In this document: positions 1,114-64,000 of the stretch, one piece after another | How positions within the stretch are numbered: the first letter of the stretch is position 1 | Layout: each line of letters begins with the position of its first letter | Assembly: GCA_004297825.1 (NCBI GenBank) | Contig: SCSX01000015.1 | Coordinates: 62,001-126,000 of the forward strand | Direction of reading: 5' to 3' | DNA: 64,000 nt | From: Spirochaetota bacterium | GTDB taxonomy: Bacteria; Spirochaetota; UBA4802; UBA5368 | Program-made: the position numbers and the translations under genes | The notes under the pieces: generated by a model | Seen by the model: the letters and a program-made list of their open reading frames with translations, nothing else | Database searches by the model: none | Told to the model about the DNA's origin: nothing

Positions 1114-1114
1114 G

Positions 1115-2890: not shown

Positions 2891-2977
2891 CGCGTTTTCC
2901 CGTCCCTGTCCGTTCATTCGGTTCGTAGTGTTCGACACAAATTAAGAGTTCTCAGTAATTTACCGCTCCGGCTTTTG

Positions 2978-7684: not shown

Positions 7685-7713
7685 TTGACATGTTATAAGA
7701 CACATACTATATT
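7685..7713 (+). promoter_or_regulatory. Sigma70-type promoter of spoVG
   Basis: A perfect -35 box TTGACA (7685-7690) and a -10 box TATATT (7708-7713) are separated by exactly 17 bases, upstream of spoVG in an AT-rich gap. A second TTGACA (7715-7720) and TATAAT (7728-7733) nearby are only 7 bases apart and cannot form one promoter. Confidence 0.75.
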
Positions 7714-7745
7714 ATTGACAACTACACTATAATGGCGGTACAGGC

Positions 7746-8030
7746 ATGCACGACATCATTACCGAAGTAAGGGTGTTCCCGAAGGAAAACCTTGGGAAGA
7801 CGCTTGGGTTCGCCAATATCACCATTCTGGACAAATTTGTCGTAAAAAACCTTCGCATTGTCCAGGGTGATAAGGGCATTTTCATTGGTATGCCGTCTAA
7901 CAAAAGGAAAAACGGGGATTTCATCGATCTCTTTTTCCCGATTACCCAGGATGCACGGGATTTGATTACCAACGCCATACTCGAAAAATACAAAGAGATT
8001 TCAAACGACCCATCGGCCGTCAGTTCGTGA
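7746..8030 (+). CDS. spoVG: SpoVG family regulator
   Basis: A 94-residue protein that matches SpoVG along its length: a beta-rich N-terminal domain (ITEVRVFPKENLGKTLGFAN, then GDKGIFIGMPS) and a C-terminal helix (DARDLITNAILEKYKEI). SpoVG is a site-specific nucleic-acid-binding regulator found in Firmicutes and spirochaetes; in Borrelia and Bacillus it affects many genes. The ATG at 7746 lies shortly after a near-consensus promoter, and the gene stands alone on the plus strand. Confidence 0.95.
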   Translation: MHDIITEVRVFPKENLGKTLGFANITILDKFVVKNLRIVQGDKGIFIGMPSNKRKNGDFIDLFFPITQDARDLITNAILEKYKEISNDPSAVSS

Positions 8031-8102
8031 CGAGTTAACTTTTTAATTTTATTTATAGCTGCACTACCGGCACGGCATTCCCCGCGGGAGGGAGAACGCG
8101 GG

Positions 8103-8420
8103 TCATTCCTCGCGCCTGAACCGTGACATGAAATTCCAGACGAAATTTGTGAGCCTCATGAGTACGAGCGCGCTGATAACGACATCCATGAGCCTGGGGA
8201 TGGCGATTCCCGTGCCCTTGAATACGCTGAACGTCTCTATCTTGTAGCACAGGAAAAAAGCCAGGACGAATATCAGCGCGTCGCGCGTGGCCTCTACCGG
8301 CCGCTTCGAGGACATTTCGCGCAACGAAGACATCGAGAATACCGCCATGACCGACGCCTCGATGATGACTGCGATCACGAACAGGCTTACGACGTTCTGG
8401 AGCAGTATATCTATATTCAT
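8103..8420 (-). CDS. Small membrane protein, function unknown
   Basis: A 105-residue protein with three likely membrane helices (about residues 7-30, 48-66 and 77-95) joined by short loops, with a basic C-terminus (SRFRREE). I do not recognise the family. It follows the 7TM-DISM sensor gene by 62 bases on the same strand, so it may be cotranscribed with it. Confidence 0.65.
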   Translation of the reverse strand: MNIDILLQNVVSLFVIAVIIEASVMAVFSMSSLREMSSKRPVEATRDALIFVLAFFLCYKIETFSVFKGTGIAIPRLMDVVISALVLMRLTNFVWNFMSRFRREE

Positions 8421-8482
8421 GTGCGGTGCAACCTCCCTGTAACGATCTGCATCTTCCCTCCCTGAGAAGCGTGTATATAATC

Positions 8483-40996: not shown

Positions 40997-42016
40997 CTAC
41001 GCGTTTGCCTTCGTTTCTGAGTTGTCATACCATTTTAAATACAATTCCGCCCCGTCCCTGCCGGACTTTACTAAATCATTTTTCTTCTGATCGGTAAGAT
41101 TGAAGTCGGTCGTGTTCACGCCAAGGGTATCAATGTATATCGTTCGCATCCAGTCGTCGCTGTGCAGGTGGAGGCTCTCCTGGGCATTGAGCACCGTTCG
41201 AATGAGGGCCCAGCTGTAGTCGAAAAAGTTATCCACCTTCCGGTGAACGGGCTCCTCATGATCCCTGAACAGGGAAATCTCCTCGCGGGTATCCAGCCGA
41301 AAGCCCAGGGTTTCCTTATTGTAGACGAAGTCCGAATCCCTGCCTGCCGCGGTAAAATCGGTATTTATTTTCGAATAATAGGGCGGCACGGAATAATTGA
41401 CGGTTGCGAGGTATCGTTTACGGTCGAAAAGCTTAACCGGGTAGTTGTCCAGGACGCCGCCGTCCACGTATACGTCGCCCCGTGCGTTGCGCTTCGCCGC
41501 AAAGAACAGCGGTATGGACATGGAAATTCTCACCGCATCGGCCACGCGCGTTTCGGGCGTTCGCTCCGCCGAGAAAACCTCCGAAAAACCCGTCGACAGA
41601 TTGGTTCCCATGAAGTACAAAGACTTGAATCCCTTCGTTGCCCGGGCGGCCTCTATGTCCGCGAACGTCGAATTGGCGTTCCCGGTCTTTTTCTTTATAA
41701 GCTTTCCTATCCAATCCCTGAAGAAATCCCCCTTGTACCAGCCGAATTTCTCGATGAGCCGGGCGGTATCCCGGACAACGCCCCACGAATCATCCATGAA
41801 CTTGTTGAAATCGAGCGACCACATGATCTCCCGGACCTCGGCAAGGGTGAAGCTGAGACCCAGCAACACCGCGTTAATGGCCCCCGCCGACGTGCCCCCT
41901 ACCCTTTCGATGTTCGGTAAGATGTTTTTTTCGGTGAGAACTTCAAGGGCACCAAGGTAGGCTATTCCTTTTACTCCGCCGCCTTCGAAAACGAGGTTTT
42001 TGAAATGGTACGGCAT
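40997..42016 (-). CDS. Patatin-like phospholipase
   Basis: A 339-residue patatin-family lipid acyl hydrolase. The oxyanion motif GGGVKG is at residues 12-17, the nucleophile elbow GTSAG at about 41-45, and the catalytic Asp in the YVDGGVLDNYP segment. The central part has family features (YFMGTNLSTG, MSIPLFFAA). It is a single-domain protein apart from a C-terminal region of about 100 residues that I do not recognise. It would hydrolyse membrane phospholipids or other acyl esters. Base composition is like the host chromosome, not like the AT-rich island that begins just beyond it. Confidence 0.9.
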   Translation of the reverse strand: MPYHFKNLVFEGGGVKGIAYLGALEVLTEKNILPNIERVGGTSAGAINAVLLGLSFTLAEVREIMWSLDFNKFMDDSWGVVRDTARLIEKFGWYKGDFFRDWIGKLIKKKTGNANSTFADIEAARATKGFKSLYFMGTNLSTGFSEVFSAERTPETRVADAVRISMSIPLFFAAKRNARGDVYVDGGVLDNYPVKLFDRKRYLATVNYSVPPYYSKINTDFTAAGRDSDFVYNKETLGFRLDTREEISLFRDHEEPVHRKVDNFFDYSWALIRTVLNAQESLHLHSDDWMRTIYIDTLGVNTTDFNLTDQKKNDLVKSGRDGAELYLKWYDNSETKANA

Positions 42017-42259: not shown

Positions 42260-43402
42260 TTATTCTCCTGATTTCTTTATTTTGCTATACGCATCAATAA
42301 TAGCGGTTACGATAACGGTCACATCCTGCATTGTGTTGTATCTGCCGTATGAAATGCGAATTGATGATTTAGCTTGTTTCTCTGACAGACCTAATGCAAG
42401 CAGAACGTGTGAAGGTTCATCTTTGCCGGAGTTGCAAGCCGATCCTGTAGCAATATAAATCCCTTTTAAATCCAACAAATGCATTATTGCTTCGCCATAA
42501 ACATGAGGAAAAGTTACATTCATCGTACCTGGTAGTCGTTCAGCATCGTCCCCGTTGATTCTGATATCAGGGATTTCTGCTCTCAGTCCATCAACGGTTG
42601 CTCTGATGAGAGAAGAGAGCTTTTCTCTCATTTCAATCATATCGGTAACGCTTTCCACAAGTGCATAGCCCAAAGCCACTATCCCTGCTACATTCTCTGT
42701 ACCTGCGCGTTGACCTTGTTCTTGTTCGCCGCCATACACCAACTGAGGCAATGCTAAGCCAGAGCGCCTATACAAAAACCCTGTGCCTTTTGCACCGTTG
42801 AATTTATGTGCAGAAGCAGTCAAGAAATCAACCTGCAAGTTTTTTACATTCACCGGAATGTGTCCAACAGCCTGCACTGCGTCAGTGTGAAATAGAATCC
42901 TTCGTTCGCAAATACGCTTACTAATAGCGGCAATAGGCTGGATTGTTCCAATTTCGTTGTTAGCTAGCATTACCGATACAAGTTTTGTGTTCGGTCTCAA
43001 TGCCATTTCTACATCATCAACCGAAACACACCCGTTACCATCAACAGCTAAGTACGTTACTTCAACTCCTCGGATTTCAAGCGCCTGGCAAGCGTTCAAA
43101 ACAGAGTGGTGTTCAATGGAGGATGTTATGATATGAATCGGATTGTTACTGAACAATATTGAAACGTTCTGAATAACCCAACTGTTTCCCTCAGTTCCGC
43201 CGGAAGTGAAGGTGATTTCGGAAGACTCCGCCCCAATAACTTCTGCAACCTGCCGTCGTGATTGTTCGATAGCTCGTTTTGCTTTCACTCCGAGCGCATA
43301 CTTACTGGATGCATTGCCATATTGCTCCTGTAGAAACGGGAGCATTTTTTTAAAAGCCACATCGGATATTTTTGTTGTAGCTGCATTGTCGGCGTAAATC
43401 AC
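42260..43402 (-). CDS. Cysteine desulfurase (IscS/DndA-like)
   Basis: A 380-residue PLP enzyme that removes sulfur from cysteine and passes it on as a persulfide. The N-terminus YADNAATTKIS, the FTSGGTEGNSW loop, HTDAVQAVGH, the PLP-lysine motif SAHKFNGAKG and the catalytic-cysteine loop GSACNSGKDEPSHVL are all intact. The start is GTG at 43402, 12 bases after the zinc-ribbon gene. It is the last gene of the BREX operon. With a PAPS-reductase-like protein in the same operon, it probably supplies sulfur for DNA modification as DndA or IscS does for DndC, but it could also serve general Fe-S assembly. Confidence 0.9.
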   Translation of the reverse strand: MIYADNAATTKISDVAFKKMLPFLQEQYGNASSKYALGVKAKRAIEQSRRQVAEVIGAESSEITFTSGGTEGNSWVIQNVSILFSNNPIHIITSSIEHHSVLNACQALEIRGVEVTYLAVDGNGCVSVDDVEMALRPNTKLVSVMLANNEIGTIQPIAAISKRICERRILFHTDAVQAVGHIPVNVKNLQVDFLTASAHKFNGAKGTGFLYRRSGLALPQLVYGGEQEQGQRAGTENVAGIVALGYALVESVTDMIEMREKLSSLIRATVDGLRAEIPDIRINGDDAERLPGTMNVTFPHVYGEAIMHLLDLKGIYIATGSACNSGKDEPSHVLLALGLSEKQAKSSIRISYGRYNTMQDVTVIVTAIIDAYSKIKKSGE

Positions 43403-43616: not shown

Positions 43617-45107
43617 TTACCCCTTTTGCACTTCAGGGTCTGGGCGCACACTAAATACCGGGATATCTTTGCCTCTATACTCTTCATCAAGCACACCAAG
43701 CTGGTACTTAATGGTATCTCTCATCTTACGTGCTCTGTCAAGGCAGTACCTTTTAAATTCACGGGCTGTAATGTCACCGGGCTCACGCACATTTGGGAAA
43801 AGTAGTTTTAAGTAGGCTGTAGCTATACGCTTGACTGCTTCGGTATCACGGGTGTCTGCCGCTTCCGGCACTTCAATAAGTTCATCGACAACAGCACGAT
43901 AACTCATATCTTCACGAAGTTCGTGAAGTACCGAGCAAAAATACTCTGAATTCAAAGCCCAGCCTGCAATTTTAAGGTCATCGTTCATCCGAGGTATGTT
44001 CCAACCTTTAATGAAACCGTGGAAACGCTCTATCAGTGCCGATTCGTGGAACACATTCGGCAATTCTTCAAACATATTGCTGTAACCATCTGCATCCATT
44101 GTTTCTTTTTTAATGTTACCGCAGAGGATTACACCGGCATCGGCAATTCCCTCATAGTTGCCAACTGTGAAAATACCCGATTCGAGGTAACCTTTTAGTG
44201 CCGCGCGCATTTCATCAACATCTGTGAATGATATAGTCTGCACTTCGTCGAGAGTTATAAAATCATTCCCTGATACCAATCCAACCGCTCGTTTATTTTG
44301 ATCATAGAACATCTTTGCTCGGCTCATTATACCTCCGCTTGAGAGCCAACCGAAACGACTTACACGACCAAATAAATACGACTTGCCAGTACCTTTTGGT
44401 GCAAGTTCGATAAGATTCAGTCGCTTTTCTATAAAGGGAAGTAACCGAGTCAGCATAGTCAGTTTTTTTTCATCGTCACCGAGGTAACCGCTCGGATTAT
44501 AGTCTACCGCACTTAAAAGGACATCAAGCCACTCCGATGTTGTAAACTCCCTGCGGGCATCCTTGTAGTAGTCAACATCAATTGTATACGGACAAAATGT
44601 CTTGAAAGTAATCAGTTTAATTTTTCCCCTGTTGGCTCCTTTGGCTCTGTTTTTTAGAAATTCAACATCATAGTCATCAGGCGGGCGATAGCCGATTTCA
44701 ACCATTCCCCATGTTTCACGACCGCGTACCAAATCTTCCTTGCAGATTTGCCAAACGGAATCCTCGATGATAGTGTCTTTGCTTGACAACCCGAAATCAG
44801 GCAAAGCAAAAGAAACTTCTCCCGTTTTGATGTCGATGTCAATAGACACCTTAGCGAGAAATTTTACTCGCTCGTGTTCGATTACCACCTGATTCTTAAT
44901 AGCTGTCCAGTCGTCCTTGCGCGGCAGGTAAGTCCGCACAAAACGAACCAACTCGTCGGAGTCGAAGTGACCGTTCTCGTCCTCGAATTTCTTTAAGAGC
45001 CAGTCACGCATAAAGGAAGGTAGGCTCAGAGCGGAGAAGAAGTTGCTCTTCTTAAGGTCTTTATAAACGACCATCTCGTCAAAGCAATTTCTGAGTTTAT
45101 CAATCAT
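43617..45107 (-). CDS. brxL: BREX protein BrxL (AAA+ ATPase)
   Basis: A 496-residue BrxL-family protein. The N-terminal domain (about 1-220) is followed by an AAA+ core with Walker A APKGTGKSYLFG, the GGIMSRAKMFYD stretch and Walker B NDFITLDEVQT, plus sensor-like LCGNIKKE. It ends about 130 residues after the core, so the Lon-like protease domain of longer BrxL proteins appears absent. The ATG at 45107 has GGAGG 8 bases upstream; the GTG at 45116 overlaps that site and is unlikely. It lies 12 bases after pglZ. BrxL proteins are ring ATPases that bind DNA in BREX defence. Confidence 0.88.
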   Translation of the reverse strand: MIDKLRNCFDEMVVYKDLKKSNFFSALSLPSFMRDWLLKKFEDENGHFDSDELVRFVRTYLPRKDDWTAIKNQVVIEHERVKFLAKVSIDIDIKTGEVSFALPDFGLSSKDTIIEDSVWQICKEDLVRGRETWGMVEIGYRPPDDYDVEFLKNRAKGANRGKIKLITFKTFCPYTIDVDYYKDARREFTTSEWLDVLLSAVDYNPSGYLGDDEKKLTMLTRLLPFIEKRLNLIELAPKGTGKSYLFGRVSRFGWLSSGGIMSRAKMFYDQNKRAVGLVSGNDFITLDEVQTISFTDVDEMRAALKGYLESGIFTVGNYEGIADAGVILCGNIKKETMDADGYSNMFEELPNVFHESALIERFHGFIKGWNIPRMNDDLKIAGWALNSEYFCSVLHELREDMSYRAVVDELIEVPEAADTRDTEAVKRIATAYLKLLFPNVREPGDITAREFKRYCLDRARKMRDTIKYQLGVLDEEYRGKDIPVFSVRPDPEVQKG

Positions 45108-45119
45108 CAATTGCACCTC

Positions 45120-47360
45120 CTAAAACAAGTCATCAAAAGCGTCATTGACTTTGCCGCTCTTGCCTTGCGCCTTAATCATAATCTTGCCAATCAAGTTGTC
45201 ACCCGCGTAAACGTCCGCCGAATAGTCACCTGCCCGTTTTGTGTCGGGCAACTTCACGGAGTAGTGGTTCGCGTCTATCTGCAAAGCTGAGTAGGGTTTC
45301 CCATTCAGGACAATGGAAAGATCCTGCACCGGCGAGTTAAGGAATAGCTTAATCTTCGATCCGGTTTGGATGTCTACGGTTACGATCTCGTCGACCAGCT
45401 TAACCATTACGCTTCCGTCTTTCAGAAACAGTTCAATAACGGGAACGACGACCTCTTCCAAAGACGCCCCGCCGTGAACCTCGACATTCGCTGCGCGGCT
45501 GCCCTTGAAGCGTCCGTAATCGGCAAGTACGAGGTATCCGTTCTGCTCTGCAGCGAACGGGAGATCATAAGGATGAAACAACTTACAGCAACGCCCCGAA
45601 TGCTCGCCTGCGGTATCGGTGTCGTATTTTTCCTCTTTGCGCCGCAGGACAGCAAGCCGTGATGCGCCGTGGTCACTTACAATCAAGAAGCGTTTGCAAT
45701 GCCTTAGCGCAAGTTCCGTAGCCGCCTTGTCTATCATTGCAGTGATGATGTCCAGTTCTTTCGCAAGGTGGAGGGGAAATTCATTATTTGTGAAGTCGTA
45801 ACCGCCCGCATCACTGTGCTTAGTATCATCAAGTTCATCGTTCTTCTCTTTGCGACCTTGCCACGCATCGAAGAAGTCTCTGTTGATGGCCGTTATCGTA
45901 GGAAGTTCCGCACGGGCGATATTGACCCGAACTGACAACCCACGCTTTTGTACTAACGCTTCGATCAAACCTAAATATTCGACACCGAGGGCATCAAGAC
46001 AGTATAGGAAGGTGTCGCTCTTATCCACGCTATCCATAATTTCATTCCGCGTTGGCAGTCTGTTGAACTTCCGCGAAAGAGCAAGCTCATCAACCTTTTC
46101 TAAGAATTCAGGCTCAAGATGGTTGGACAGCTTTTGCCGTTTATACGCCTCGAAATACTCGGACAGCAAGTTTGCCAATTCCGGGCATTTGAAAACGTAC
46201 TTTTCCATGTAGGCCGCTAGCACGGGGTAAATGCCATCGAGCTCCGGAATCATACCGTTTTTCGAGAGCCAAGCAATAATCTCTTCACGCTCCGCTCTTG
46301 TCCCGTCCGTCAACTTATAAATGCTTTCAGGCACCAATTGTCGACTATTCACCACGAAGTCAGCAATATCCGATTCTGGGAACTTCTCGACCAGGGCCTT
46401 ACGCTCACGGTAGAACGAGGCAAATCGCCTGTCGGTATATTGAATTTCGATTATCGCATTAAGAACATTCCCGGCAAAGTCCTCAAAACGGCTCGTCTTC
46501 TCTAGTATGAACCGAAGGTATCCGTTTTGCAATGTGTCAGCTTTGCTCTTTAGGCAAATGAAATAGAGCCAGTTGCGGTAGTCGCTCCCAGCAATGCGGG
46601 CGTAAAAATCCGACTCCATATTCTTGCCAAAATCGTGCTTTTCGAATACCTCGTCTAGCGAGCCGTTGCTCTGGTTGAGTTCTGTCAGCAACTCTGCCCA
46701 GTTAGCGTCATTTCCGCAAGAAGGCGCCAAGGCAAAGCCCCTTTTTAAGAACTTAATGCCCTCGTAGGCATCGCTGATTTGGTGTACCGTCAATATCGAT
46801 TTGTCGAGATTAATAGCAGTGTTTACGACAACACTACCGCACCGTCCATTTTCGAGTTCCGCAAGCATCGCTTTAAAACCCGATAAAGCCGACAATCCGA
46901 CAGACGGGGCAGCAAGGGTAAACGATAAGTCGCACTCCGCCTTGTCGACGACGCTTAGCCGACGGCTGTCAAAGCGTGGGTCTGTCTGCAACCCGTCAAT
47001 CAGCAAGGCAAGCCCTCGCAGTAGCAGCAAAACTTTTACACCGCCGACATTGAGGTCTTTCAACCGCGACAGGGTGCGTATTGCCTCATCACTTCCGCGA
47101 AGCGCAAGAAACTCGCCAAGCCCCGTTACAACGAGCTTTTTCCCGTTTGCCTTTACGTCCTCCGCCTGGATATAGGTGAGGAGTCCGTCGATGTCTGGCA
47201 TTTTGTCGTCACTGTTACAGAACCAGCTCATATGCACGAAATCAAGCCCCAAGACCGATAACTCTTCCATTGCGGTCGTATACTGCCCGTCGCTGATGAA
47301 CAAAAAATATGGCGTTTCGACGGGTGATGTCAGGTATTTTTTTACCGAATCAATTTGCAT
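45120..47360 (-). CDS. pglZ: BREX phosphatase-like protein PglZ
   Basis: A 746-residue PglZ protein. The alkaline-phosphatase-like PglZ core is in the second half: LPTITAINRDFF, FLIVSDHGASRL with the metal-binding Asp and His, and the strongly diagnostic EVHGGASLEEVVVPVIEL. The N-terminal 400 residues are helical and unlike the core. A C-terminal beta-sandwich of about 90 residues follows. The ATG at 47360 has a GGGGG tract just upstream and overlaps the brxC end by 11 bases. PglZ is the signature protein of all BREX systems and its phosphodiesterase role in defence is not fully understood. Confidence 0.92.
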   Translation of the reverse strand: MQIDSVKKYLTSPVETPYFLFISDGQYTTAMEELSVLGLDFVHMSWFCNSDDKMPDIDGLLTYIQAEDVKANGKKLVVTGLGEFLALRGSDEAIRTLSRLKDLNVGGVKVLLLLRGLALLIDGLQTDPRFDSRRLSVVDKAECDLSFTLAAPSVGLSALSGFKAMLAELENGRCGSVVVNTAINLDKSILTVHQISDAYEGIKFLKRGFALAPSCGNDANWAELLTELNQSNGSLDEVFEKHDFGKNMESDFYARIAGSDYRNWLYFICLKSKADTLQNGYLRFILEKTSRFEDFAGNVLNAIIEIQYTDRRFASFYRERKALVEKFPESDIADFVVNSRQLVPESIYKLTDGTRAEREEIIAWLSKNGMIPELDGIYPVLAAYMEKYVFKCPELANLLSEYFEAYKRQKLSNHLEPEFLEKVDELALSRKFNRLPTRNEIMDSVDKSDTFLYCLDALGVEYLGLIEALVQKRGLSVRVNIARAELPTITAINRDFFDAWQGRKEKNDELDDTKHSDAGGYDFTNNEFPLHLAKELDIITAMIDKAATELALRHCKRFLIVSDHGASRLAVLRRKEEKYDTDTAGEHSGRCCKLFHPYDLPFAAEQNGYLVLADYGRFKGSRAANVEVHGGASLEEVVVPVIELFLKDGSVMVKLVDEIVTVDIQTGSKIKLFLNSPVQDLSIVLNGKPYSALQIDANHYSVKLPDTKRAGDYSADVYAGDNLIGKIMIKAQGKSGKVNDAFDDLF

Positions 47361-50300
47361 TCTGTCCCCCCCCATTCGCCAGTATTTCAATCCCGACTGT
47401 TATGCTGTCCTTGACAAGCCGTTTGAGGTACTGCTTTAATTGGGCGTCGTCCATCTCGTCGATTTTCAAGAGAACCTTGTCGCTGCCGCCGGCATTATAC
47501 TCGGCTTCGGCGAGTTGCTTCACCTTGCCCTTGACGCTAGGATTGTCGCGCCAATCGTAAGTGTCTACGGAAAGGTGGTCGAGCGTGTCCCTGACCTTAT
47601 CGAGGTCAGGGAGCAACGGGCTGTATTCACCGACAATATCCCGCTTGAATGCCGTGTTCCGCTTCTCTTCATCCGCAAGGATGCCGAACAGCGTGGTGGA
47701 TTCAAGGAACGCATGAGCGGATTGGATTTCGGAATCCATTCCCCAGTTTCGGTTGAGGGTTTCAAATGCTTTCTTTGCTTTTTCGTATTCAGCTTCGGAG
47801 ACACAACATAGAATAGGTGTCCTGTAGCGGCTCGACCACTCACTAGGGTTTCTCGTTCCCGTCTTGTCTTTCCATAAGCGGAAGAGCTGCGATTTCAACT
47901 GGTTCTTGCGGAACTCCTCGGCAGCTTCTTTTACCTTGACATTACAATCAGTTTTCGATAACTCAAACAAGCCTGTCTGGAGTTTGCTCTTCACATCGGC
48001 GATGTCGTTATCGCTCAAGTCTTCAAGGTACGGCTTATAGACCTCTGCAAAAGCACGTCTGTCGTTGTTCAGCAATTCTCGGATTTCCGCGCCGTGCGTC
48101 TCTAACTCCGGATAGAACGCTTTCAACTGTTCGGGCAGGATATCCTCTTGCTTACAGATTTTCAGGAGCGTGTCGAGGACTTTTGCCAAGTCGGGATACT
48201 TTGCCCGCAGAGCCTCGCACGAGATGCCGATGAACTTCAGCCGCTCGCGCCACTCCTTGTACGCGTCCGTCAAGGAATGACCCGCACTATTCAGGATTGT
48301 ATTGCTCTCTTTGACCACGTTATACTCGGTCAGCAGTTTGCGTATTTCTGTCTCGCCCGTTTGCTTATCCCAAAGGCACGAGTACTCCACTTCGAACAAT
48401 TGGCGAATGTCGGAAAGCACATTATTTTCAGCACCGATTGCCGTTGCAAGTTCCATAACTTTACCGTCCTCAAAGGGGCGGAGATACTCGCGCATACCTT
48501 TCTGGCAGTTCTCGCTTGTGAGCAAAGTAAACAAGTTGTCGGCGAGCGAGGGCTTGGCGGACGCAATCCTGCCGATTTCCACCGCTTTCTTATGAGCCTC
48601 ATGGCCTTCCTTTTGAACAAGTTCAATGTACTTCTGAACCACATCAAAGATTCCGACTGTGTCCACTTCTTCAAGGCACCATACCGGCAGGTTTAGAGCG
48701 CGCATTTTCGTAGACACGGCTATTGCAGCATGTCCTGCGGATGAACACGAATTTGGCTGGATACCCCATGCTTTTTCCGTGAGTTCGTAAAATGCCTTCT
48801 CATCCGCAGTCATCTTCACGATGTAAGTTGGCTTCGCTTTTTTTCCGATGTAATTGCCGATCATCTCCGCAAGTTTATCCTGTGTCATCTGTTCGTGACT
48901 TCCGGATGAATCGCTGTAACGGTAAGGCTCACTGCCGTACTCTTTCAAGAGGAAACCCGTAATTAAGGCCGAAAGGTTACACGGTGCAAAGCCATAGGTT
49001 TCCTCAAGGAAGTCGTAGATTTCGCCGATTGAAATCTGCCCGTCGCGGGCAAATTCGACATCGATCCGCTTGTCTACCTCGACTTTGATTTTTGAGATGG
49101 GCAGTGAAGATGTTGGCGGGCTTTCCCAATACTTATCGATCTTCCAAACGGTCGGAAGGACATGCTTCTCGATGCCGGAAACAACACCACTAGTGGCCTG
49201 CGATATGCCGGACTTTGCCGATTGCCTCATCGCAGGAGTTATCTTCAGTTGGCTCTCTGTGAGGCTTTTTGCGAAATCGAACACGTACGGGAATTTGGTC
49301 ATCACTATGGTCTGGAGGACGCTTGCCACGCCTTGCCCGTTGCCGAGTTTTTCGCCCTCTTGATTTGCGTAGGTGTATACTACAAATTGACCGTTGTAGA
49401 TATGGTTTTTCCAGTTTTGGTCTAAAACACGCTTTGCTTTATCCGAACTTTCCCGCGAGGACGTGTTGTTGCTGCCTTGGTAGTACATCGCCATAGCGGA
49501 GAAGTCCACGTACTGTTCAAACGCCTCCGAGCCAAGCGGTGTAGAGAGCGCGTCGATGAATACGATGTTCTCATACTGCTTATCCGCAACAGCAGTTCTG
49601 AGCGTCTTGCGGAAGCTTGCCGCTTCCACATCGTCCTTGGCAAAGGCGATAACGGCGCAGAAATTACACCCCATGGCTCTGTCGCGCAGGATATTGATTG
49701 TGCGTGTGAAGTCGGCGGTGGTTACGGGAGTGATTTTTCCAGTACCCGGCTCGGACTCAAATCTCAGACGTAGGGCAGGCGAAAGCGACAAAACAGTAGA
49801 AAGCTCACCCTCTGTAACCAGTTTCGAGGTTGTGCTATTCTGTCGCATATCTTTCTTATGGTTGTCGATCTTGGCTTGGTCTCCCGCAAGCACGGCAGCC
49901 GCATAGGCATACCGCCCACCGCTTATCGGGTTCGAAACGAGGATGCCTTTTTCCTTAAGTACTTTCGCGATGTTAGCGGATTTCGTTCCCTCCAAGTCGG
50001 GAATGCCCTCAAAGACATAGCTGAGGTTCTGTTCGGTTGCCTTGAAAAGGTCGATTGTGCCGCCCAACCGCTGATCAATCGCCTGCATACTGAGGATGGC
50101 TTTCAGGACAGCTTTCTCATCCTCACGCAAATTCTGCTGCTGCGGAAAGGTGTCCAGTATTAGGCGAATGCTTGATTTGAGATTATCCCTACCTTTTTCA
50201 TAGAAAAAGTTCCACAGCATATCCACCGTGAGAAGCGGGTGGCCGTCAAAGGGACCCGTATTCTCAATGAACCATTGGAACGCCTTTACATTGTCCGTGT

Positions 50301-51510
50301 TAGAGGATTTGATGAAGTCGAACATACTCCGCTGGTTGGACTTGAACGCAGAGGCTATGTTTTTAAGGAGCAGAGCCGCCATCGGGTGAAGCGGCATAAT
50401 GTCCTTCATCACCTGAAAGTTGTCAATCTTTGCAACCGCCATCACCTTGGAGCAGGAATTCTTGACCCGGTCGTTAAGGTCGTCGGCGAGAATGTCCCAC
50501 TGCGGCTTGGCGGCAGGCTTAACGTTGAAAGCGTGACCGATTAGGTTGAACGCAATGTTGTCAGGCAGGGCAATCTGCACGGGGATGAAGCGGTCGCGTA
50601 CCTTTTTCCAAGTCGTGTCGGCGGTCGTGAACAACTGTCCCGATTCGTGCGTAACGACGATGAAGTAGAATGGCTTTAGGTTCACCAACTCGGCGAGTTT
50701 CTGGAACTCCGAAAGGCTCTCACGGTTGTTCTTAAAGTAATCGGAGAACTCGTCCCATATAAAGACAATCTTTACATTGTTGTGGTCGATAATGTCAATC
50801 AGCCAGGCGATGAGCCTGTCAGCGTCAATATTCAGCGCAGTAATGCCTTCTTTGTCGGCAAGACGGAAGATGTTATCCATCAGCGTCTTGATCTCACCAC
50901 CTTTTCGAAGGGCGTTCAGCACCTCACCAGCAGAGGATTGGCTGAACAAAGCGGCCCACTCCGGCTCTTTCAAAAGCGCGTTGAAGTACAGCTTGTTCGA
51001 AGGCTTGTCAATCCAAGCTATAACGCTTTCCTTCAGAGTGTTCTCGCCTGCGTAAAGGTTTGTCGCTACCAGTGAAGCCTTTAGTGTTTCTTGAACAGCA
51101 AGAAAAAGATCGCGGGGAGAGTCAATCATACCCGAAGCATAACGATAAGCGGTCAGGATACCCTTTTGTTTATGACCGTTGAGCTTTTCGAGCAAGTCGG
51201 TTTTATTTTTCAGCGGCTCGTATCTGTCCCAGTAGGCGCGGAGCTCTTCTTCCGGCACTTCGAGAATTTTTTTCAGAGCATAGGCGCACTGCGACTTGCC
51301 CGTGCCGTATGCGCCCTCAATCCAGAGGGAACGCTTCTCCTGGCGTGCCAACACCCGCTCCATATTGTTCAGCATTTCGATGAACGTGTTGTGCGGGTAT
51401 GTGCGCATCCAGAAGTCCGGGCTGGCGGCGGCGATGGCAGAGTCGTTTACTTGAGGAAAATACTCCTCGTCAATGTCAAAGTATTCGCGGTATTTGTTTT
51501 TAGTAGCCAT
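47350..51510 (-). CDS. brxC: BREX P-loop ATPase BrxC/PglY-like
   Basis: A 1386-residue protein with Walker A GAYGTGKS (residues 66-73) and Walker B KIVFIWDEF (about 246-254). Most of the remainder is helical, with no further domain I can name, as usual for BrxC/PglY. The ATG at 51510 follows AGGGGGA and overlaps the end of the BrxP gene by 11 bases. The family is an essential part of BREX types and is thought to be a large ATPase of the DNA-sensing or modification complex. It sits between brxP and pglZ, as in BREX type 4. Confidence 0.9.
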   Translation of the reverse strand: MATKNKYREYFDIDEEYFPQVNDSAIAAASPDFWMRTYPHNTFIEMLNNMERVLARQEKRSLWIEGAYGTGKSQCAYALKKILEVPEEELRAYWDRYEPLKNKTDLLEKLNGHKQKGILTAYRYASGMIDSPRDLFLAVQETLKASLVATNLYAGENTLKESVIAWIDKPSNKLYFNALLKEPEWAALFSQSSAGEVLNALRKGGEIKTLMDNIFRLADKEGITALNIDADRLIAWLIDIIDHNNVKIVFIWDEFSDYFKNNRESLSEFQKLAELVNLKPFYFIVVTHESGQLFTTADTTWKKVRDRFIPVQIALPDNIAFNLIGHAFNVKPAAKPQWDILADDLNDRVKNSCSKVMAVAKIDNFQVMKDIMPLHPMAALLLKNIASAFKSNQRSMFDFIKSSNTDNVKAFQWFIENTGPFDGHPLLTVDMLWNFFYEKGRDNLKSSIRLILDTFPQQQNLREDEKAVLKAILSMQAIDQRLGGTIDLFKATEQNLSYVFEGIPDLEGTKSANIAKVLKEKGILVSNPISGGRYAYAAAVLAGDQAKIDNHKKDMRQNSTTSKLVTEGELSTVLSLSPALRLRFESEPGTGKITPVTTADFTRTINILRDRAMGCNFCAVIAFAKDDVEAASFRKTLRTAVADKQYENIVFIDALSTPLGSEAFEQYVDFSAMAMYYQGSNNTSSRESSDKAKRVLDQNWKNHIYNGQFVVYTYANQEGEKLGNGQGVASVLQTIVMTKFPYVFDFAKSLTESQLKITPAMRQSAKSGISQATSGVVSGIEKHVLPTVWKIDKYWESPPTSSLPISKIKVEVDKRIDVEFARDGQISIGEIYDFLEETYGFAPCNLSALITGFLLKEYGSEPYRYSDSSGSHEQMTQDKLAEMIGNYIGKKAKPTYIVKMTADEKAFYELTEKAWGIQPNSCSSAGHAAIAVSTKMRALNLPVWCLEEVDTVGIFDVVQKYIELVQKEGHEAHKKAVEIGRIASAKPSLADNLFTLLTSENCQKGMREYLRPFEDGKVMELATAIGAENNVLSDIRQLFEVEYSCLWDKQTGETEIRKLLTEYNVVKESNTILNSAGHSLTDAYKEWRERLKFIGISCEALRAKYPDLAKVLDTLLKICKQEDILPEQLKAFYPELETHGAEIRELLNNDRRAFAEVYKPYLEDLSDNDIADVKSKLQTGLFELSKTDCNVKVKEAAEEFRKNQLKSQLFRLWKDKTGTRNPSEWSSRYRTPILCCVSEAEYEKAKKAFETLNRNWGMDSEIQSAHAFLESTTLFGILADEEKRNTAFKRDIVGEYSPLLPDLDKVRDTLDHLSVDTYDWRDNPSVKGKVKQLAEAEYNAGGSDKVLLKIDEMDDAQLKQYLKRLVKDSITVGIEILANGGGQNAN

Positions 51511-53860
51511 TTGCTGCATCCCCCTTAAATAAGTCGAGTACATCTTGGGACGATTTATCCTCTGCCAGCGTTATTTTTTCAAGGTCGTGCGTGAACGATG
51601 CGGTTATGAACTCAGGGTACTTCGCCGATAGTCCCAACAGGAGCTGCGTCATATCTTCACGGTCAAGCCCGAAGATGCGGGTGGGGCTGATGCCGTCGCG
51701 ATCGATGCTGTCGTTCAGAAGCGTGGCAAGAGTGAACTCCTTATAGTCGTTGCACTTTTCCGCGAACTTGAACAGGCCGTACAGCACCACGCGCGGGTCG
51801 CTCACCGAGCATTTCGTGCGGACGAGGTCGCCCTCATTGGTAACGAAGCCCCAATGCAAGCTTGCGCCGAGTGGTGTCTCGACAAGACGTTTGTAGGATT
51901 TGACGATTGACTTAGCGTCCTTTGGACTGACATCAACCACGGTCAGCATATCCTCGACTGTCTTACGAGCATAGGTTCTGCCGACATCGAAATTGTTTAC
52001 ATACCACTCTATCTGCGGGTTTTCGGCAACAAGGTTGATAAGAATCAGACCTTGCGCCGTGTCCGTTTCCCAACCTATCTGCGCGATTAACTCGGCAAAC
52101 GACGTGAAGTGGTTCTTTTCATTTAGGGAAGCATCCTTAAGGAAACGCCTAAACATATCGAACATCATTGGACCCAGTGAATGCTCAGAAAAGAAAGCCC
52201 CTTTCAGTTCAAAGAATGAGCGCAACCACTCCGGCTTTGGAGCGTGGTCGGCAAATGAGTTCAGGCTTTTCATTGACTTACCTCCTCCTTGTGGCTGGCG
52301 CAGCGAGTGGAACAACAGACAGCCGCTGTCGATTGCGTGGCACTCGTGACACCTGCTACAGTTACTTATTTGGACTTTGCCGTCAGCAAAACTGATACAA
52401 CCATTTCGACAGTTCGTTTCGCAAACTCGGCAACCTTTACAATACGAGGCTTTTCTGAATACCTGTCGGAACATTTTCCCGAATACGGGTCGCTCTTTCA
52501 GCACAACCTCCGGGATTGTTACGATGTAGCCGTTCTTTGTCGCCTTAACGGAAGCCAGAATGTATTCGCCGTCAAATTGAACGTAGTAGCCACCGTTACC
52601 GCCGCGTAAATCTCCGAGCGTTTTTATCCATTCCAACCAGTCGGAATCAGGGTCAGTAATGGTTATAGTCAAATTTCCATTTGTAATCTTTTCAATGCAA
52701 CGGAAAGTATTGTTCGATAACTCGCGCCCATTCTTTCTGGCGTTCCAGCCGCCGTTTAGGATATACGATTCGATGTTGCTCTTACTTCGCTTGTCCCCAT
52801 CGTAGGTCTTCTTAATCGAATCGATATAGCTATCAATCTCTGCCGGATAGCTCGCTCGGCGTAAGTAGTCGCTTGTACCGCCCGACATAGGGCAAAACAA
52901 ACATCCGGCACGACCATTGCCCTTCTTATAGGTTTCGTTAATAAGCACATCGTTCGCGTATATATAAAGCCATATCTCGGCAGATGTCCATTCGAGGATT
53001 GAGTTATGGCTGAACTGGCCCTTTTGTTTTGCGCCATAGTTCTCATAATTGTAAGTGCTTCGAGCAACGCTCTCCTGGGCCCGAACTCCAACAAAGTCAA
53101 GGCCGATAAAATTGTTATTGCCAGTTACATCTCTCAACTTCAACGTCTGCGGAGTGCTTTTATGCACCGAGCAGCACCAACGGAGCACACGTGACGGGGG
53201 GCCGAATAATTCCCACGATTCCTTTGGGTTGAGGTGCGACTTGCCAATGTAGAACGGTATCTCGTCCGCGGCACATTGATGTTTGGTCTTTTTGATGACT
53301 TCGTAGGTGTCGGGGAACTCCATGCCCGTGTCGCCAAATACCACAACGAAGCTGCCTTTGGGCAGGGCTTTCTTAACCAGGTCGAGCAGGACACAACTGT
53401 CCTTACCGCCCGAAAACGCTACATGGAAGCAGTCGAGCCTATCCTTGTACTTATTGTAGACAGCCAGTATTTTCTTGACCGTGGTCTGCTCGATGATTTC
53501 AAGCATCTCACGGTTTACTTCAACCGTAGCCTCTATGTCAATGGGGCGAAGCGATATGCCTTTAGGTTCTGGCATTATCGGTTTGCCGTCCTCGCCGTTC
53601 GGAATGATAATCTCAGGGGCGGTTTTGATATTGCCGCCTTTCAGCTTTGCAACAAGTGTCCCGCGATAGTAATAACTGTTCGCCTCCGCCCACATATATG
53701 GGCGGTCGGTCTGCTTGTCGTACTTCCAATACTTTTCAAAGCCCAGCACGTCCAATTCTGGCGCGTAAACCGGGCGAGGTTCTTTGGAGAATCCGGTCGG
53801 CGAGGAATTAAGAAGTATCCCACCCGCTTTCTTGTCGTAGGTATACGAGTACAATTTCAA
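51500..53860 (-). CDS. brxP: BREX type 4 PAPS reductase-like protein BrxP
   Basis: A 786-residue multidomain protein. After an N-terminal region that includes a phage-type PAPS reductase leader (KYWKYDKQTDRPYMWAE), the ATP-pyrophosphatase loop FSGGKDSC is at residues 149-156. Cysteines in VLRWCCSVHK and GCLFCPMSGG could hold the Fe-S cluster seen in DndC-like enzymes. A second cysteine-rich part (CKGCRVCETNC, CSRCHEC) resembles a 4Fe-4S ferredoxin domain. The last 240 residues look like a DUF4007-type domain. The probable start is TTG at 53860, overlapping the upstream stop by 4 bases. By analogy with DndC it would activate DNA for sulfur insertion. Confidence 0.88.
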   Translation of the reverse strand: MKLYSYTYDKKAGGILLNSSPTGFSKEPRPVYAPELDVLGFEKYWKYDKQTDRPYMWAEANSYYYRGTLVAKLKGGNIKTAPEIIIPNGEDGKPIMPEPKGISLRPIDIEATVEVNREMLEIIEQTTVKKILAVYNKYKDRLDCFHVAFSGGKDSCVLLDLVKKALPKGSFVVVFGDTGMEFPDTYEVIKKTKHQCAADEIPFYIGKSHLNPKESWELFGPPSRVLRWCCSVHKSTPQTLKLRDVTGNNNFIGLDFVGVRAQESVARSTYNYENYGAKQKGQFSHNSILEWTSAEIWLYIYANDVLINETYKKGNGRAGCLFCPMSGGTSDYLRRASYPAEIDSYIDSIKKTYDGDKRSKSNIESYILNGGWNARKNGRELSNNTFRCIEKITNGNLTITITDPDSDWLEWIKTLGDLRGGNGGYYVQFDGEYILASVKATKNGYIVTIPEVVLKERPVFGKMFRQVFRKASYCKGCRVCETNCRNGCISFADGKVQISNCSRCHECHAIDSGCLLFHSLRQPQGGGKSMKSLNSFADHAPKPEWLRSFFELKGAFFSEHSLGPMMFDMFRRFLKDASLNEKNHFTSFAELIAQIGWETDTAQGLILINLVAENPQIEWYVNNFDVGRTYARKTVEDMLTVVDVSPKDAKSIVKSYKRLVETPLGASLHWGFVTNEGDLVRTKCSVSDPRVVLYGLFKFAEKCNDYKEFTLATLLNDSIDRDGISPTRIFGLDREDMTQLLLGLSAKYPEFITASFTHDLEKITLAEDKSSQDVLDLFKGDAANGY

Positions 53861-55335
53861 TCCATCCTTTCTCGTATGGCTCTCGCCTTATCGATAATTT
53901 CGTTAACTTGTGCGGTTGTCTTTCTACCCGTGTAGCCGCTCTCATACAGGAACTTGCCCACGGCGGCTTCCTTCAAGGGAACGTCGGCATTCGCCACGGC
54001 ACAGGTCATAATCTCCGTATAATCCATGCCACAGCTTTTGCGGATAATTGCTCCGGCGTTCCGAGAGTTAACCGATGGGGTACCAAACCGAAACTTCCGA
54101 CTGAAGCGGCGGCAGTAGCTTTCAAGTATAAACAAATTCCACGTCTGACCGCAGTCGGGGAACGCTCCGAATGTGGTGAAAGACTTAAGCGGAAGATAAT
54201 CTCCCTTAACAAACAGCCCAATTGCTTCGTCGATTATGTCGGCGTTGAAGTGAACATATTTATCCGCCAAATATGTGTCTTTATCAATACGAACCAGAAC
54301 GGTGTTACCCGCTTCCATCGGAATCCAACGGTGCGCTTCACCCGTCAGTTCACGTTCAAAGTTAAGCAGTTCTTGCAGTGTGCATTTCTCCAAAGAGCGA
54401 CAATGTTCTTTCATAATTGACAGCGCATCGAGCGTGTCACCTTTACTCATTACTATTTTGCCGCGTCTATCGTATTTGTCCGCAATAATGATTTCAAACG
54501 TCGCGTTGCGGACGGCCGTGAGTGTTAGTTCGCAATTACGCTCCACAATTTCTCCGAGCGGAATGTCACTCAGGGAAGCATACCCGCACTTACGATAAGC
54601 CATCGCGACATAATTCGTTATGGCAGCGCGCTCTTCATCGTTAATGTCTACACTGCTGATGTGTGTGTACACGCCTTCGCTGTTCCAAATGAAGTCTTTG
54701 TTTTGCGCCAAAACGTTCTTTATCTTGTCAACGGGAACGTATGGGAGCCGTTCCGAAAGCTGCTCGTAGCTTAAGAGAACATCAGCGCCCCATACGCGAA
54801 GTACCTCTCTTCTGACTTTGCTGAGTACATGGCCGCTTTGCATTTGTAACGCAAAGTATTTCATCGTGTGCGCAAATCGAGGGCACAACTTCACAAGGAT
54901 GTTTTTAAGCATATCCTTGGAGATTATATTCGCCGAGAACAGCCAATCCTCATTTTTCTCGTAGAAAGCACTATAGAATATGACTTCCGCTCCCTCGGTC
55001 ATCGCCGTATCTATTTCGCTCTTTATTCTATTAGTGACATTTGCCCCGACAATATACAGTTTTCCGTCGAATAGTGTTCCACGAGACAGAATAGCTGAAT
55101 TGAGTTCTTCATCGGATAAATCAATCTCCTCACCGAAATCTTCTGCTACAAACTTGCGAAGACGAAACAATTCTATCGGTGAACCGCTCCTGAATCCGTT
55201 TAGAAAATGCTCCCTCAGAGTTTTTATAAGTATGTTGCCAAGCTGTTCTTCGTCTTCTTTTTTCACATCGACTCTTCCGTTTATCATAATTGGAGAAGTG
55301 GTATAATTGATAGTAGAAATGTCGTAATCTACCAA
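53857..55335 (-). CDS. Unrecognised 492-residue protein heading the BREX operon
   Basis: I do not recognise this family. The product is soluble, with segments that look like repeated winged-helix units (SYEQLSERLPYVPVDKIKNV, ELNSAILSRGTLFDGKLYIV). A C-terminal helical region ends KTTAQVNEIIDKARAIRERM. No catalytic motif is obvious. The likely start is TTG at 55335 with AAAGGA 9 bases upstream; the next ATG (55287) has no ribosome-binding site. Its stop overlaps the brxP start by 4 bases, so it is coupled to the BREX genes. A DNA-binding or regulatory role is a guess from the helix pattern and its first place in the operon. Confidence 0.72.
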   Translation of the reverse strand: MVDYDISTINYTTSPIMINGRVDVKKEDEEQLGNILIKTLREHFLNGFRSGSPIELFRLRKFVAEDFGEEIDLSDEELNSAILSRGTLFDGKLYIVGANVTNRIKSEIDTAMTEGAEVIFYSAFYEKNEDWLFSANIISKDMLKNILVKLCPRFAHTMKYFALQMQSGHVLSKVRREVLRVWGADVLLSYEQLSERLPYVPVDKIKNVLAQNKDFIWNSEGVYTHISSVDINDEERAAITNYVAMAYRKCGYASLSDIPLGEIVERNCELTLTAVRNATFEIIIADKYDRRGKIVMSKGDTLDALSIMKEHCRSLEKCTLQELLNFERELTGEAHRWIPMEAGNTVLVRIDKDTYLADKYVHFNADIIDEAIGLFVKGDYLPLKSFTTFGAFPDCGQTWNLFILESYCRRFSRKFRFGTPSVNSRNAGAIIRKSCGMDYTEIMTCAVANADVPLKEAAVGKFLYESGYTGRKTTAQVNEIIDKARAIRERMD

Positions 55336-61160: not shown

Positions 61161-61290
61161 TCTACGCCACTCGCCTATCGGACCCCCAAAATAATCTTTA
61201 CTTTGCCCCCCCTTTCCTGTAACTTTTACCAGAGCATGATACCTTTATACCGGCGGCGAAGGTGACGATACTATAAACAGGGTGGACGTA

Positions 61291-62010
61291 ATGAAAATGT
61301 CACTTATCATATCCGGGCTCATCATGCTTTGCGCGGCAGGCGGGTACGCCGCGGCGGAGGACGTGAAAAAGCCGGCCGAGGAAACCCTCTTCAAGAAGGC
61401 AGTGGCGTACTACTACCAGCAGAAATTCGAGATGGCCGAGCTTATGCTCCAGGAGGAGCTCAAGACCAACCCGGAGAACGCCCTCGCCTACTCGTACCTG
61501 GGCGACATCTTCCTGCTGAAAAAGCGCTATGACGGGGCCATGGACCTCTACCGCAAGGCGGTGGACCTGAATCCCTCGAGCGCCGAGGACCATTTCCGGA
61601 TCGGCCAGATATACTATTACAAGAAGGACGGCAAGACCGCGATCGAGGAGTTTCGCAGGGCGTTCGAGATCAACGAGAACATCAAGTACGCCTACTACCA
61701 CATGGGCCTCTCGTACCTCATGCTCATGCGCGACAAGAAGCAAACCATCGAGTGCTGGGAGACGTACCTGCGCATCGCGCCCGAGGATCCCCAGCACGAG
61801 AAGATCCGCCGCGTGATCGAGCTCCTGAAAGACCCCAACTTCACGATCCCCCCCGTGGGCAGCGAAATATCCATTGAGGAGGCCCTGCACCTGGGCGGCG
61901 CCGTGCTCAAGGAGACCGCGCACCAGACCGAGGACAAGAAGGCGGGCCACGAGAAAAAAAAGACCAAGGACACGATGGAAGACGTATACCGCGACGACGC
62001 GTTAAAATAA
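61291..62010 (+). CDS. Exported TPR-repeat protein
   Basis: A 239-residue protein with a signal peptide (MKMSLIISGLIMLCAAGGYA) and about four TPR units (KAVAYYYQQKFEMAELMLQ, YSYLGDIFLLKKRYDGAMDL, HFRIGQIYYYKKDGKTAIEE, YYHMGLSYLMLMRDKKQTIE), followed by a charged tail (HEKKKTKDTMEDVYRDDALK). The ATG at 61291 has AGGGTGG upstream and is preferred over GTG 61282. It is followed 16 bases later by the large TPR protein gene, likely one operon. Confidence 0.82.
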   Translation: MKMSLIISGLIMLCAAGGYAAAEDVKKPAEETLFKKAVAYYYQQKFEMAELMLQEELKTNPENALAYSYLGDIFLLKKRYDGAMDLYRKAVDLNPSSAEDHFRIGQIYYYKKDGKTAIEEFRRAFEINENIKYAYYHMGLSYLMLMRDKKQTIECWETYLRIAPEDPQHEKIRRVIELLKDPNFTIPPVGSEISIEEALHLGGAVLKETAHQTEDKKAGHEKKKTKDTMEDVYRDDALK

Positions 62011-62026
62011 ATCCCGGAGGGCCTCA

Positions 62027-64000
62027 ATGTATTACGACCGTTCGCGCAGCATCAAGATGGTGGGCGCGGGAGCCCTTGTAGCGCTCTTTCTCCTGGGCGG
62101 CTCCTACCTGCTCTACAAGAATTTCAGCAACCCGGCGAAGGACGTGCCCGACCTGCGCTACGAGCAGATCGAGCTTTTCAAGAAGCTGCTCGCGACCGAT
62201 CCCACGAACGTCGAGTACCTCATGAAGATCGGCGGCCTTTACAAGGCCCTGGGCGAGTACGACAAGGCAATCGATTATTTCAAGCGCGCCCTCAAGGAGG
62301 ATCCCAACAACTACGCCGCGCTCACGGAGCTGGGTCACGCGTACGCCCTCAAGGGCGATTTCGACAGCGCCATAGCCACACTCGAGCTCGCGAAGAAGAA
62401 TTTCCCGAAAAATCCGGCCGCGTACAACAAGCTGGGCGGCATCTATGAAAGCATGGACAAGCTGAACAAGGCGATCGACGAGTACAGGGCGGCCATCAAG
62501 GTCGCGCCCCAGTACCAGGAGAGCTACTGGAACATCGCGAAGAACAACCTCAAGACGGGCGACACCAAGGGCGCCGTCGATATCGTCAACCAGGGGATCA
62601 AGGCGAACCCCAAGGACCCCGAGGGACATTACAACCTGGGAAACGTGTACATGGGCGAGAACAGGTTCGCCGATGCGCTCGGCTCCTTCAAGAAGGCCGT
62701 GGCGCTGGATCCGCGCGTGTCCAAGTACCACCGGGGCGAAGGGGAAGCGGACCTGAAGCTGGGCCGCACGGACGACGCGATCGCCGCATTCAGGCGCGCC
62801 CTGGACGCCGACAAGGCCGACGCGATGGCGGCGGAACGACTGGGCGACATCTTCGCGCAGGCGGGGGATTACGAAAACGCGCTCAAGAACTACACGCAGG
62901 CGCTCAATTACAACGGCAACGACAAGAATTTACAGGATAAGTACAATTTCGCCTACGGCAAGGTCAACGCCGCGAAGAAACCGGCGGACGGCAAGGTTCG
63001 GGCCGATAAATCCGGCGTGGACCGGGGCGGCGAGGATATCGGGGAGGAGAAGATCCCCGGGGTGAAAAAGCCGAAAGACGGCGATTCCAAGTGGCGCGAG
63101 ATGGGGGACAAGTACCGCGAGGAAAAGGACTACGACAACGCGGTAAAGTCCTACAAGAAGGCCATCGCCCAGGACCCCATGGACGACTACTCCCATTACT
63201 GGATGGGAAGGATCCATTACCACAACAAGATGGACGAGGAGGCCAAGAAGGAATTCACCGAGGCGGCCACCCTGAACCCGCAGAACGCCGACGCGTTCTA
63301 TCGCCTGGGAACGATCAACCACATGGAGGGCCGCTACGATACGGCAGTCCGGAATTTCAGCAAGGCCGTAGAGATACAGCCCAATTTCCCGCGTGCCTAT
63401 TATTCAAGGGGCCTCTCTTATTATAAGCAGAACGACCAGGGACGCGCAATCCAGGACCTGAAAACGTCCATCCAGCAGGACCCCCAACTCGACAAGGCCT
63501 ATTTCAACCTGGGCACCATCTATCTTAAAAACAAGAACTTCCAGGAGGCGCTCAACAACTTCTCGCGCGACAAGGAGCTTCGCCCCAACAATCCCGATAC
63601 CAATTTCAAGCTGGGCGAGACCTACCACGAGATGAAATCCTACGCCAACGCGGTGCAGTTTTACCAGAAGGCCATAGAGGCCGATCCCTCCTATTCCCAG
63701 GCCTATTTCAACATGGGCCTTATCAGCTCGGAGCGCAAGCAGTTCCAGGAATCGGTGGGATATTTCGAAAAAGCGCTCAACGTGAAATCCGAGGATGCGC
63801 CCTCCTATTACGAACTGGGCAAAGCATACGAAGGACTGGGGAACGAGAATAAGGCGATCGAGAGCTACAAGCAGGCCATAAACAAGAACCCCTCCTATTC
63901 AGCCGCGTACCTGAACCTGGGCAATATCTACGCCAAGAACAAGCTTACCGACAAGGCGATAGAGCTCTTCAAGAACGCGACCACGAACGATCCGCGGTCG
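62027..64000 (+). CDS. Large membrane-anchored TPR protein, partial
   Basis: The ATG at 62027 follows GGAGG by 6 bases, and the frame is open for 658 codons to the window end. An N-terminal membrane helix (about residues 12-30) is followed by a first array of about seven TPR units to residue 310. A charged linker without repeats (about residues 315-345, rich in Lys/Gly/Asp) comes next, then a second array of at least eight units. The TPR pattern is clear (for example ALGEYDKAIDYFKRAL and GEYHEMK-type helix pairs). It is probably a scaffold for envelope or secretion complexes, cotranscribed with the TPR gene upstream. The C-terminus lies beyond the window. Confidence 0.85.
   Translation, partial: MYYDRSRSIKMVGAGALVALFLLGGSYLLYKNFSNPAKDVPDLRYEQIELFKKLLATDPTNVEYLMKIGGLYKALGEYDKAIDYFKRALKEDPNNYAALTELGHAYALKGDFDSAIATLELAKKNFPKNPAAYNKLGGIYESMDKLNKAIDEYRAAIKVAPQYQESYWNIAKNNLKTGDTKGAVDIVNQGIKANPKDPEGHYNLGNVYMGENRFADALGSFKKAVALDPRVSKYHRGEGEADLKLGRTDDAIAAFRRALDADKADAMAAERLGDIFAQAGDYENALKNYTQALNYNGNDKNLQDKYNFAYGKVNAAKKPADGKVRADKSGVDRGGEDIGEEKIPGVKKPKDGDSKWREMGDKYREEKDYDNAVKSYKKAIAQDPMDDYSHYWMGRIHYHNKMDEEAKKEFTEAATLNPQNADAFYRLGTINHMEGRYDTAVRNFSKAVEIQPNFPRAYYSRGLSYYKQNDQGRAIQDLKTSIQQDPQLDKAYFNLGTIYLKNKNFQEALNNFSRDKELRPNNPDTNFKLGETYHEMKSYANAVQFYQKAIEADPSYSQAYFNMGLISSERKQFQESVGYFEKALNVKSEDAPSYYELGKAYEGLGNENKAIESYKQAINKNPSYSAAYLNLGNIYAKNKLTDKAIELFKNATTNDPRS

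Follow-up and report, generated by a model that had tools for sequence, protein, structure and literature searches.

A leader gene of one BREX type 4 clade encodes a predicted winged-helix array whose front part is exchanged between operons

Bacteriophage exclusion (BREX) systems of type 4 consist of brxP, brxC, pglZ and brxL together with a cysteine desulfurase gene. Among related components, BrxR, the regulator of type I BREX, contains a winged helix, and HsdS, the specificity subunit of type I restriction, pairs a conserved docking part with a recognition part that can be exchanged. In this study, a 64,000-nucleotide stretch of a Spirochaetota genome (contig SCSX01000015.1, positions 62,001 to 126,000 of the forward strand; hereafter the window) was analysed, in which every part of a type 4 operon is present along with an extra gene, here called X. 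X is a conserved leader subunit across a whole BREX type 4 clade and is undescribed within the literature searched. With slightly less than an even chance, we read it as an accessory subunit of this clade that would act as a recognition head or adaptor open to exchange.

53857..55335, minus strand: X, the leader gene, encoding 492 amino acids (list of open reading frames (ORFs) and AlphaFold2 model).

The frame of X is open over 492 codons and starts with TTG. The gene order at the locus, X-brxP-brxC-pglZ-brxL-cysteine desulfurase, is that of a complete BREX type 4 operon, and X is its first gene because the ORF at 55717 points in the opposite direction; both the frame and the leading position agree with the preliminary description of this DNA. 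X is a genuine gene, given that homologues at 28-63% identity occur elsewhere and that nonsynonymous divergence (dN) lies well below synonymous divergence (dS) between close copies. Between loci L003 and L004, for example, the blocks of X showed dN of 0.04-0.18 and dS of 0.19-0.76, and X is therefore constrained, as expected of a working gene.

X immediately precedes brxP, in the same orientation, in all 18 X-bearing loci (the window, L003, L004, L005, L006, L007, L013/G052, L014, L015, L017, L022, L030, L032, L110, L111, L119, L120 and L123), half of which (L014, L015, L017, L022, L030, L032, L119, L120 and L123) had been found via brxP or pglZ and not via X. On a BrxP tree of 20 rows, a branch with support 100/99 separated the 15 X-bearing rows from the five rows without detectable X, which amounts to one change of state (as low in 0 of 500 shuffles); the rows with partial brxP (L004, L007, L112 and L119) were left out of this tree, and L116, which is without X, has a long branch. 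When 392 genomes of the window's phylum were examined, six contained type 4 pglZ and five contained full-length X. These five were the same genomes that contained full type 4 pglZ; the sixth, G357, has a truncated operon (L016) that retains just a pglZ piece, brxL and the desulfurase, and no X was detected there. X is constantly associated with one BREX type 4 clade.

As to whether X might be absent from most type 4 operons, the outcome was mixed: X was present in every intact operon of this clade except L112, but was undetected in the other branch. L112 (G925) lies on a cut contig; its brxP is 56% identical, and a 265-residue frame upstream gives a weak match to X (E 0.02) that is short and doubtful. 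Every brxP-like row apart from G873 and G890 was scanned with the X profile, the 75 weaker ones included. X was undetected in the operons found via core genes at L028 (a Methanosphaera plasmid), L033, L116, L117 and L118. In L117, L118 and L028, inspection revealed no candidate, and a 371-residue ORF in L116 was not taken as X, the X core profile giving no match at E up to 10. Likewise not taken as X was a 673-residue ORF of L033 (7975-9996), which matched the X core by hhalign at 0.2% and for which no relative turned up outside its own contig. This ORF ends at the brxP start in a layout that resembles that of X; it has short N-terminal stretches in common with X relatives (best E 9.6e-7), as well as HARE-HTH and integrase-SAM matches, both below cut-off. 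Further brxP-like matches occurred without detectable brxC, pglZ or brxL (L029, L031, L034 and L113-L115). In the viral contigs L031 (2403-5753) and L034 (1-3030) these form a tandem pair of brxP-like genes, possibly a phage-borne DNA sulfur modification.

Comparison of the window with its near-identical operons divided X into two parts and uncovered a second exchanged segment within brxP.

54331..55335, minus strand: X residues 1 to ~335, the part replaced relative to L003, L005 and L022.
53857..54330, minus strand: X residues ~336-492, the conserved C-terminal part, presumed to be the docking end.
51908..52990, minus strand: brxP residues ~291-651, the second exchanged cassette (block comparison).

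Set against L003, brxP of the window shows 93% identity and a synonymous distance of 0.21. In X, identity to L003 is 26-56% over residues 1 to ~335, where synonymous sites are saturated (proportion of synonymous differences, pS, 0.65-0.84), but reaches 85-91% over residues ~336-492 (pS 0.20-0.27). When more loci were included, the front part showed 24-59% amino acid identity to L003, L004, L005 and L022 (pS 0.61-0.87), and the C-terminal part, in which a WNLF(I/L)LESYCRRFS motif sits, showed 79-91% identity to L003, L005 and L022 (pS 0.20-0.41). The best split of X against L003 was placed at codon 339 of 495 (open frame) with a score of 14.5, compared with a maximum of 1.97 in 200 shuffles; against L022 and L005, it was placed at codons 330 and 325, respectively. 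Because the split lies far outside the shuffles, and because synonymous sites are saturated on one side of it while the tail matches, replacement and not just fast evolution accounts for the front of X. Over 14 loci (91 pairs), mean identity was 34.9% for the X core and 54.0% for BrxP, with X lower in 86 of the pairs and a rank correlation of 0.89 between the two, which indicates that X travels with the operon yet changes faster.

In the brxP cassette, middle blocks of the window compared with L005 and L022 were 40-60% identical in amino acids (pS 0.63-0.92). The cassettes of L005 and L022 differed from the type found in the window and L003 and from each other (~39-63%, pS 0.59-1.09, middle blocks), and flanking blocks were mostly 82-97% identical (pS 0.19-0.40). 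The cassette spans the iron-sulfur part and probably most of the DUF4007 region of BrxP, and is a possible determinant of site specificity. The exchanges in X and brxP are independent of each other, since the window and L003 have the same brxP type with different X heads, and L003, L005 and L022 have the same X core with different brxP segments. X is for this reason probably not the setter of the phosphorothioate motif, and would rather supply a second recognition. A further step, which we regard as possible but on the doubtful side, is that BREX type 4 contains two independently exchangeable cassettes: brxP residues ~291-651 would set the phosphorothioate site, and the front of X (the N-terminal two thirds together with any plug-in modules) would set a second cue, e.g. 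phage or modified DNA. In L030, an insertion of ~2.9 kb (7094-9991) splits brxP; it had no match in Rfam.

Ahead of the X core, relatives contain 55 to 993 residues, compared with 36 in the window (stop-to-stop frames), and these N-terminal parts reappear in differing combinations. An integrase-SAM-like part was seen in L015 and L110 (Pfam Phage_int_SAM families, E 0.0024-0.14, all below cut-off), and a part resembling the C-terminus of ZorC (PADLOC), not found in window X, was seen in L014 (E 5.5e-8), L022 (2.2e-5) and L004 (0.002), with matches that cover just 31-75 of 570 profile positions. L032 matched alpha-CTD (7.4e-27, two stretches) and Sigma70_r4 (9.8e-10). Module M3, absent from window X, was present in L003, L004, L013, L015, L017, L030 (twice) and L123. 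Within the L123 model, M3 aligned with DNA-bound SeqA (VIA, 3fmt_B: Z 8.0, root-mean-square deviation (rmsd) 2.4, 92 aligned), and sequence comparison lent slight support (hhalign probability 1.3%; score 17.6 compared with at most 15.9 in 30 shuffles); the fold of M3 is possibly SeqA-like, a lead only. L003 and L022 have an X core allele in common (82-95%) and different N-terminal modules.

Besides the five full-length copies, the genomes of the phylum yielded two weak X matches. One is a true distant relative of X in L133 (G366; hhalign probability 98.6, E 1.3e-15), where a 914-residue protein (503-3247) combines alpha-CTD and sigma region 4 matches with an X-like core. The contig is 3.8 kb long and ends there with no BREX gene in view, and X may therefore belong to a wider family; no relatives of L133 were found in the viral scan. 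On plasmids and viral contigs, a single-sequence search returned no X relatives, and an alignment search returned two. The second weak match from the phylum, in G139 (E 9e-4, 73 positions) on a contig without a BREX gene by eye, was set aside as chance.

Given these modules, X could be envisaged as an autoregulator of operon transcription analogous to BrxR, and its first position, its winged helices and the alpha-CTD and sigma region 4 modules of L032 and L133 are in keeping with such a role. On the other hand, X has no WYL domain (Pfam, E up to 1), the region upstream of it contains no inverted repeat with arms of more than 7 bases and no strong palindrome, X is bound to one BREX type 4 clade, and six to seven winged helices far exceed what a simple repressor needs. 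The regulator, one of three roles guessed in the preliminary description, thus drew no positive evidence, and we consider it decidedly unlikely.

The structure of X was modelled with AlphaFold2 from a ten-row alignment (mean predicted local distance difference test score (pLDDT) 83.0, predicted template modelling score (pTM) 0.58). In the DSSP string of the model, a helix-helix-helix-strand-strand pattern recurs, and X is accordingly predicted to consist of some seven winged-helix-like units in tandem.

X residues ~24-96, 98-164, 168-227, 230-299, 302-358, 363-434 and 437-492: winged-helix-like units, with borders read from the DSSP string.

Foldseek searches of PDB placed winged-helix arrays at the top, namely UFL1 (E 2.6e-5) and the C-terminus of SelB (1lva; E 3e-4), followed by Dcc1 and others. 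VIA top rows spanned single units (maximum Z 8.6), and TM-scores were low, so that the kind of unit is matched and the arrangement of units is not. The viral fold library gave no match to X below E 0.001. BrxA, PglW and SspB structures were not among the matches listed, which excludes nothing. For the 1066-residue relative in L123, the core of the model showed the same unit pattern as X (pLDDT 70.9, pTM 0.39), and the full model had no fold match in PDB below E 0.001. The repeated winged-helix-like stretches noticed earlier are thus borne out by both model and fold matches, without a clear match to a known family. The expectation of DNA contact found no support for the array as a whole, whose core has an isoelectric point of 5.1-5.6 and, in 9 of 10 rows, a negative net charge. 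The only mostly positive unit is unit 6 (363-434), with a positive charge in 9 of 10 rows; it is also the best conserved one (61.8% mean pairwise identity).

This acidity speaks against our preferred interpretation of X as a recognition subunit, as do several other observations. Window X itself carries no N-terminal module; in-frame stops interrupt X in two of the 18 loci (L004 and L022), and X of L007 has an internal deletion; these defects also argue against X being functional in every host. The operon of L007 is itself damaged, because its brxP start continues into brxC sequence. The exchange in X could be the neutral edge of a recombination tract, since one internal breakpoint together with the operon edge suffices to explain it. 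Moreover, brxL, at the opposite edge, diverges throughout between the window and L003 (pS 0.65-0.96), so that recombination at operon edges is general and the exchange in X may be neutral. As for acidity, it is not decisive against DNA binding, because BrxC, PglZ and BrxL are acidic here as well.

Several of these same observations would suit a structural scaffold or loader of the BREX type 4 complex, with a front end that drifts and swaps without functional meaning. The core is acidic, its nearest folds include the protein-binding arrays UFL1, ESCRT-II and Dcc1, and the exchange has a single internal breakpoint and extends to the operon edge. A plain scaffold would not, however, need the different modules borne by near-identical cores, and DNA-binding types occur among the N-terminal modules of a relative; we regard a scaffold as unlikely. 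The interrupted copies bear in turn on the notion of a restraint factor, an off-switch or self-protection factor released upon infection. By general reasoning, a leading gene would yield X ahead of the effectors, but sequence and structure offer nothing specific, and stop codons break X in L004 and L022 while, in L022 at least, brxP, brxC, pglZ and brxL are still open. The guess of a restriction-blocking factor found no evidence, and a restraint role appears quite improbable.

Of the three roles guessed earlier, that of a target sensor is the best fit, since exchange affects the N-terminal two thirds and the additional N-terminal modules but spares the C-terminus. In a recognition subunit of this kind, the C-terminal units would dock X onto the BrxP/BrxC/PglZ machine, as suggested by the conservation of the C-terminal third. 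The variable front end, judging from its exchange and from the types of module attached to it, would meet DNA, nucleoprotein or a phage factor and would steer where or when the BREX machine modifies or restricts; what it recognises would differ between hosts. BREX type 4 is treated as brxPCZL, and four-gene reconstitutions may thus miss a working part. The natural exchanges of the X head offer ready allele pairs for probing BREX type 4 recognition, and if the two-cassette arrangement is true, reassortment would lead to combinatorial anti-phage specificity.

The remainder of the operon was assigned as follows.

51500..53860, minus strand: brxP (PADLOC BrxP 5.7e-263; Pfam PAPS_reduct 2.7e-29).
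47350..51543, minus strand: brxC (PADLOC BrxC E 0, 2282 bits).
45120..47390, minus strand: pglZ of BREX type 4 (NCBIfam BREX_PglZ_4 567 bits, cut-off 140).
43617..45116, minus strand: brxL (NCBIfam TIGR02688 392 bits, cut-off 329).
42260..43402, minus strand: cysteine desulfurase, DndA/SspA/NifS-like (PADLOC DndA 1.3e-133; NCBIfam NifS 445 bits, below cut-off).

BrxP combines a PAPS-reductase domain, ferredoxin-like cysteines and a partial C-terminal DUF4007 match (Pfam 0.0034, below cut-off). The TGA stop of X overlaps one candidate brxP start (TTGA), and an alternative TTG lies 2 nt beyond the stop, at a position where several relatives have ATG. Translational coupling of X and brxP, claimed in the preliminary description, is likely, although the exact start of brxP is not fixed. 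The desulfurase, proposed as a sixth core part of BREX type 4 (PMC12839542), would be the sulfur donor of a presumed DNA phosphorothioation. In L003, amino acid identity of brxC codons ~121-180 to L022 falls to 43% while the synonymous difference stays at 0.16, which suggests a compensated frameshift. Beyond the desulfurase, on the same strand, lies a patatin-like phospholipase gene (40997-42016) with a weak likeness to phospholipase effectors of cyclic-oligonucleotide-based antiphage signaling systems. Tetratricopeptide-repeat proteins are encoded at 61282-64000, the last of which extends past the window end.

In line with the earlier view of X as uncharacterised, searches of Pfam (E up to 1), PADLOC, PHROGs and PDB sequences returned 0 matches, DUF4007 being among the Pfam families not matched. 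TagK was set aside as an identity for X, the NCBIfam match reaching E 0.18. No kinase domain was found in X or in 14 related proteins and pieces scanned. X is nowhere described in the available text of the literature searched, a scope outside which supplementary tables and the Yuan et al. 2024 preprint fall. A counterpart of X is absent from the account of BREX type 4 in PMC12839542 and from passages on type 4 in PMC11931770 and PMC12707154.

Compared with known systems, X shares with BrxR, the WYL regulator of type I BREX (PMC9122589), its linkage to a BREX system, but differs in lacking a WYL domain, in having six to seven winged-helix units and in being seen here with BREX type 4 only. In PglW of type 2 BREX, three winged helices come after an alpha-CTD-like domain (PMC12839542). 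This theme recurs in L032; alpha-CTD matches occur in the relatives L032 and L133 and not in window X, which, unlike PglW, has no kinase match, and the two are likened by description alone. The tripartite unit of BrxA/DUF4007/SspB, a helix-turn-helix with two winged helices, likewise brings more than one winged helix to a system of this type; the modelled array of X appears longer, and X has no DUF4007 match, DUF4007 being already within brxP. Tandem winged helices as in X are likewise found in the C-terminal array of SelB, to which the L123 model aligned with a VIA Z of 8.5 (rmsd 8.1, 214 aligned), but SelB binds mRNA (the selenocysteine insertion sequence, SECIS) in selenocysteine translation, and the X locus has no such context. 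With HsdS, X shares a replaceable part that adjoins a conserved part in one gene, a likeness of layout alone.

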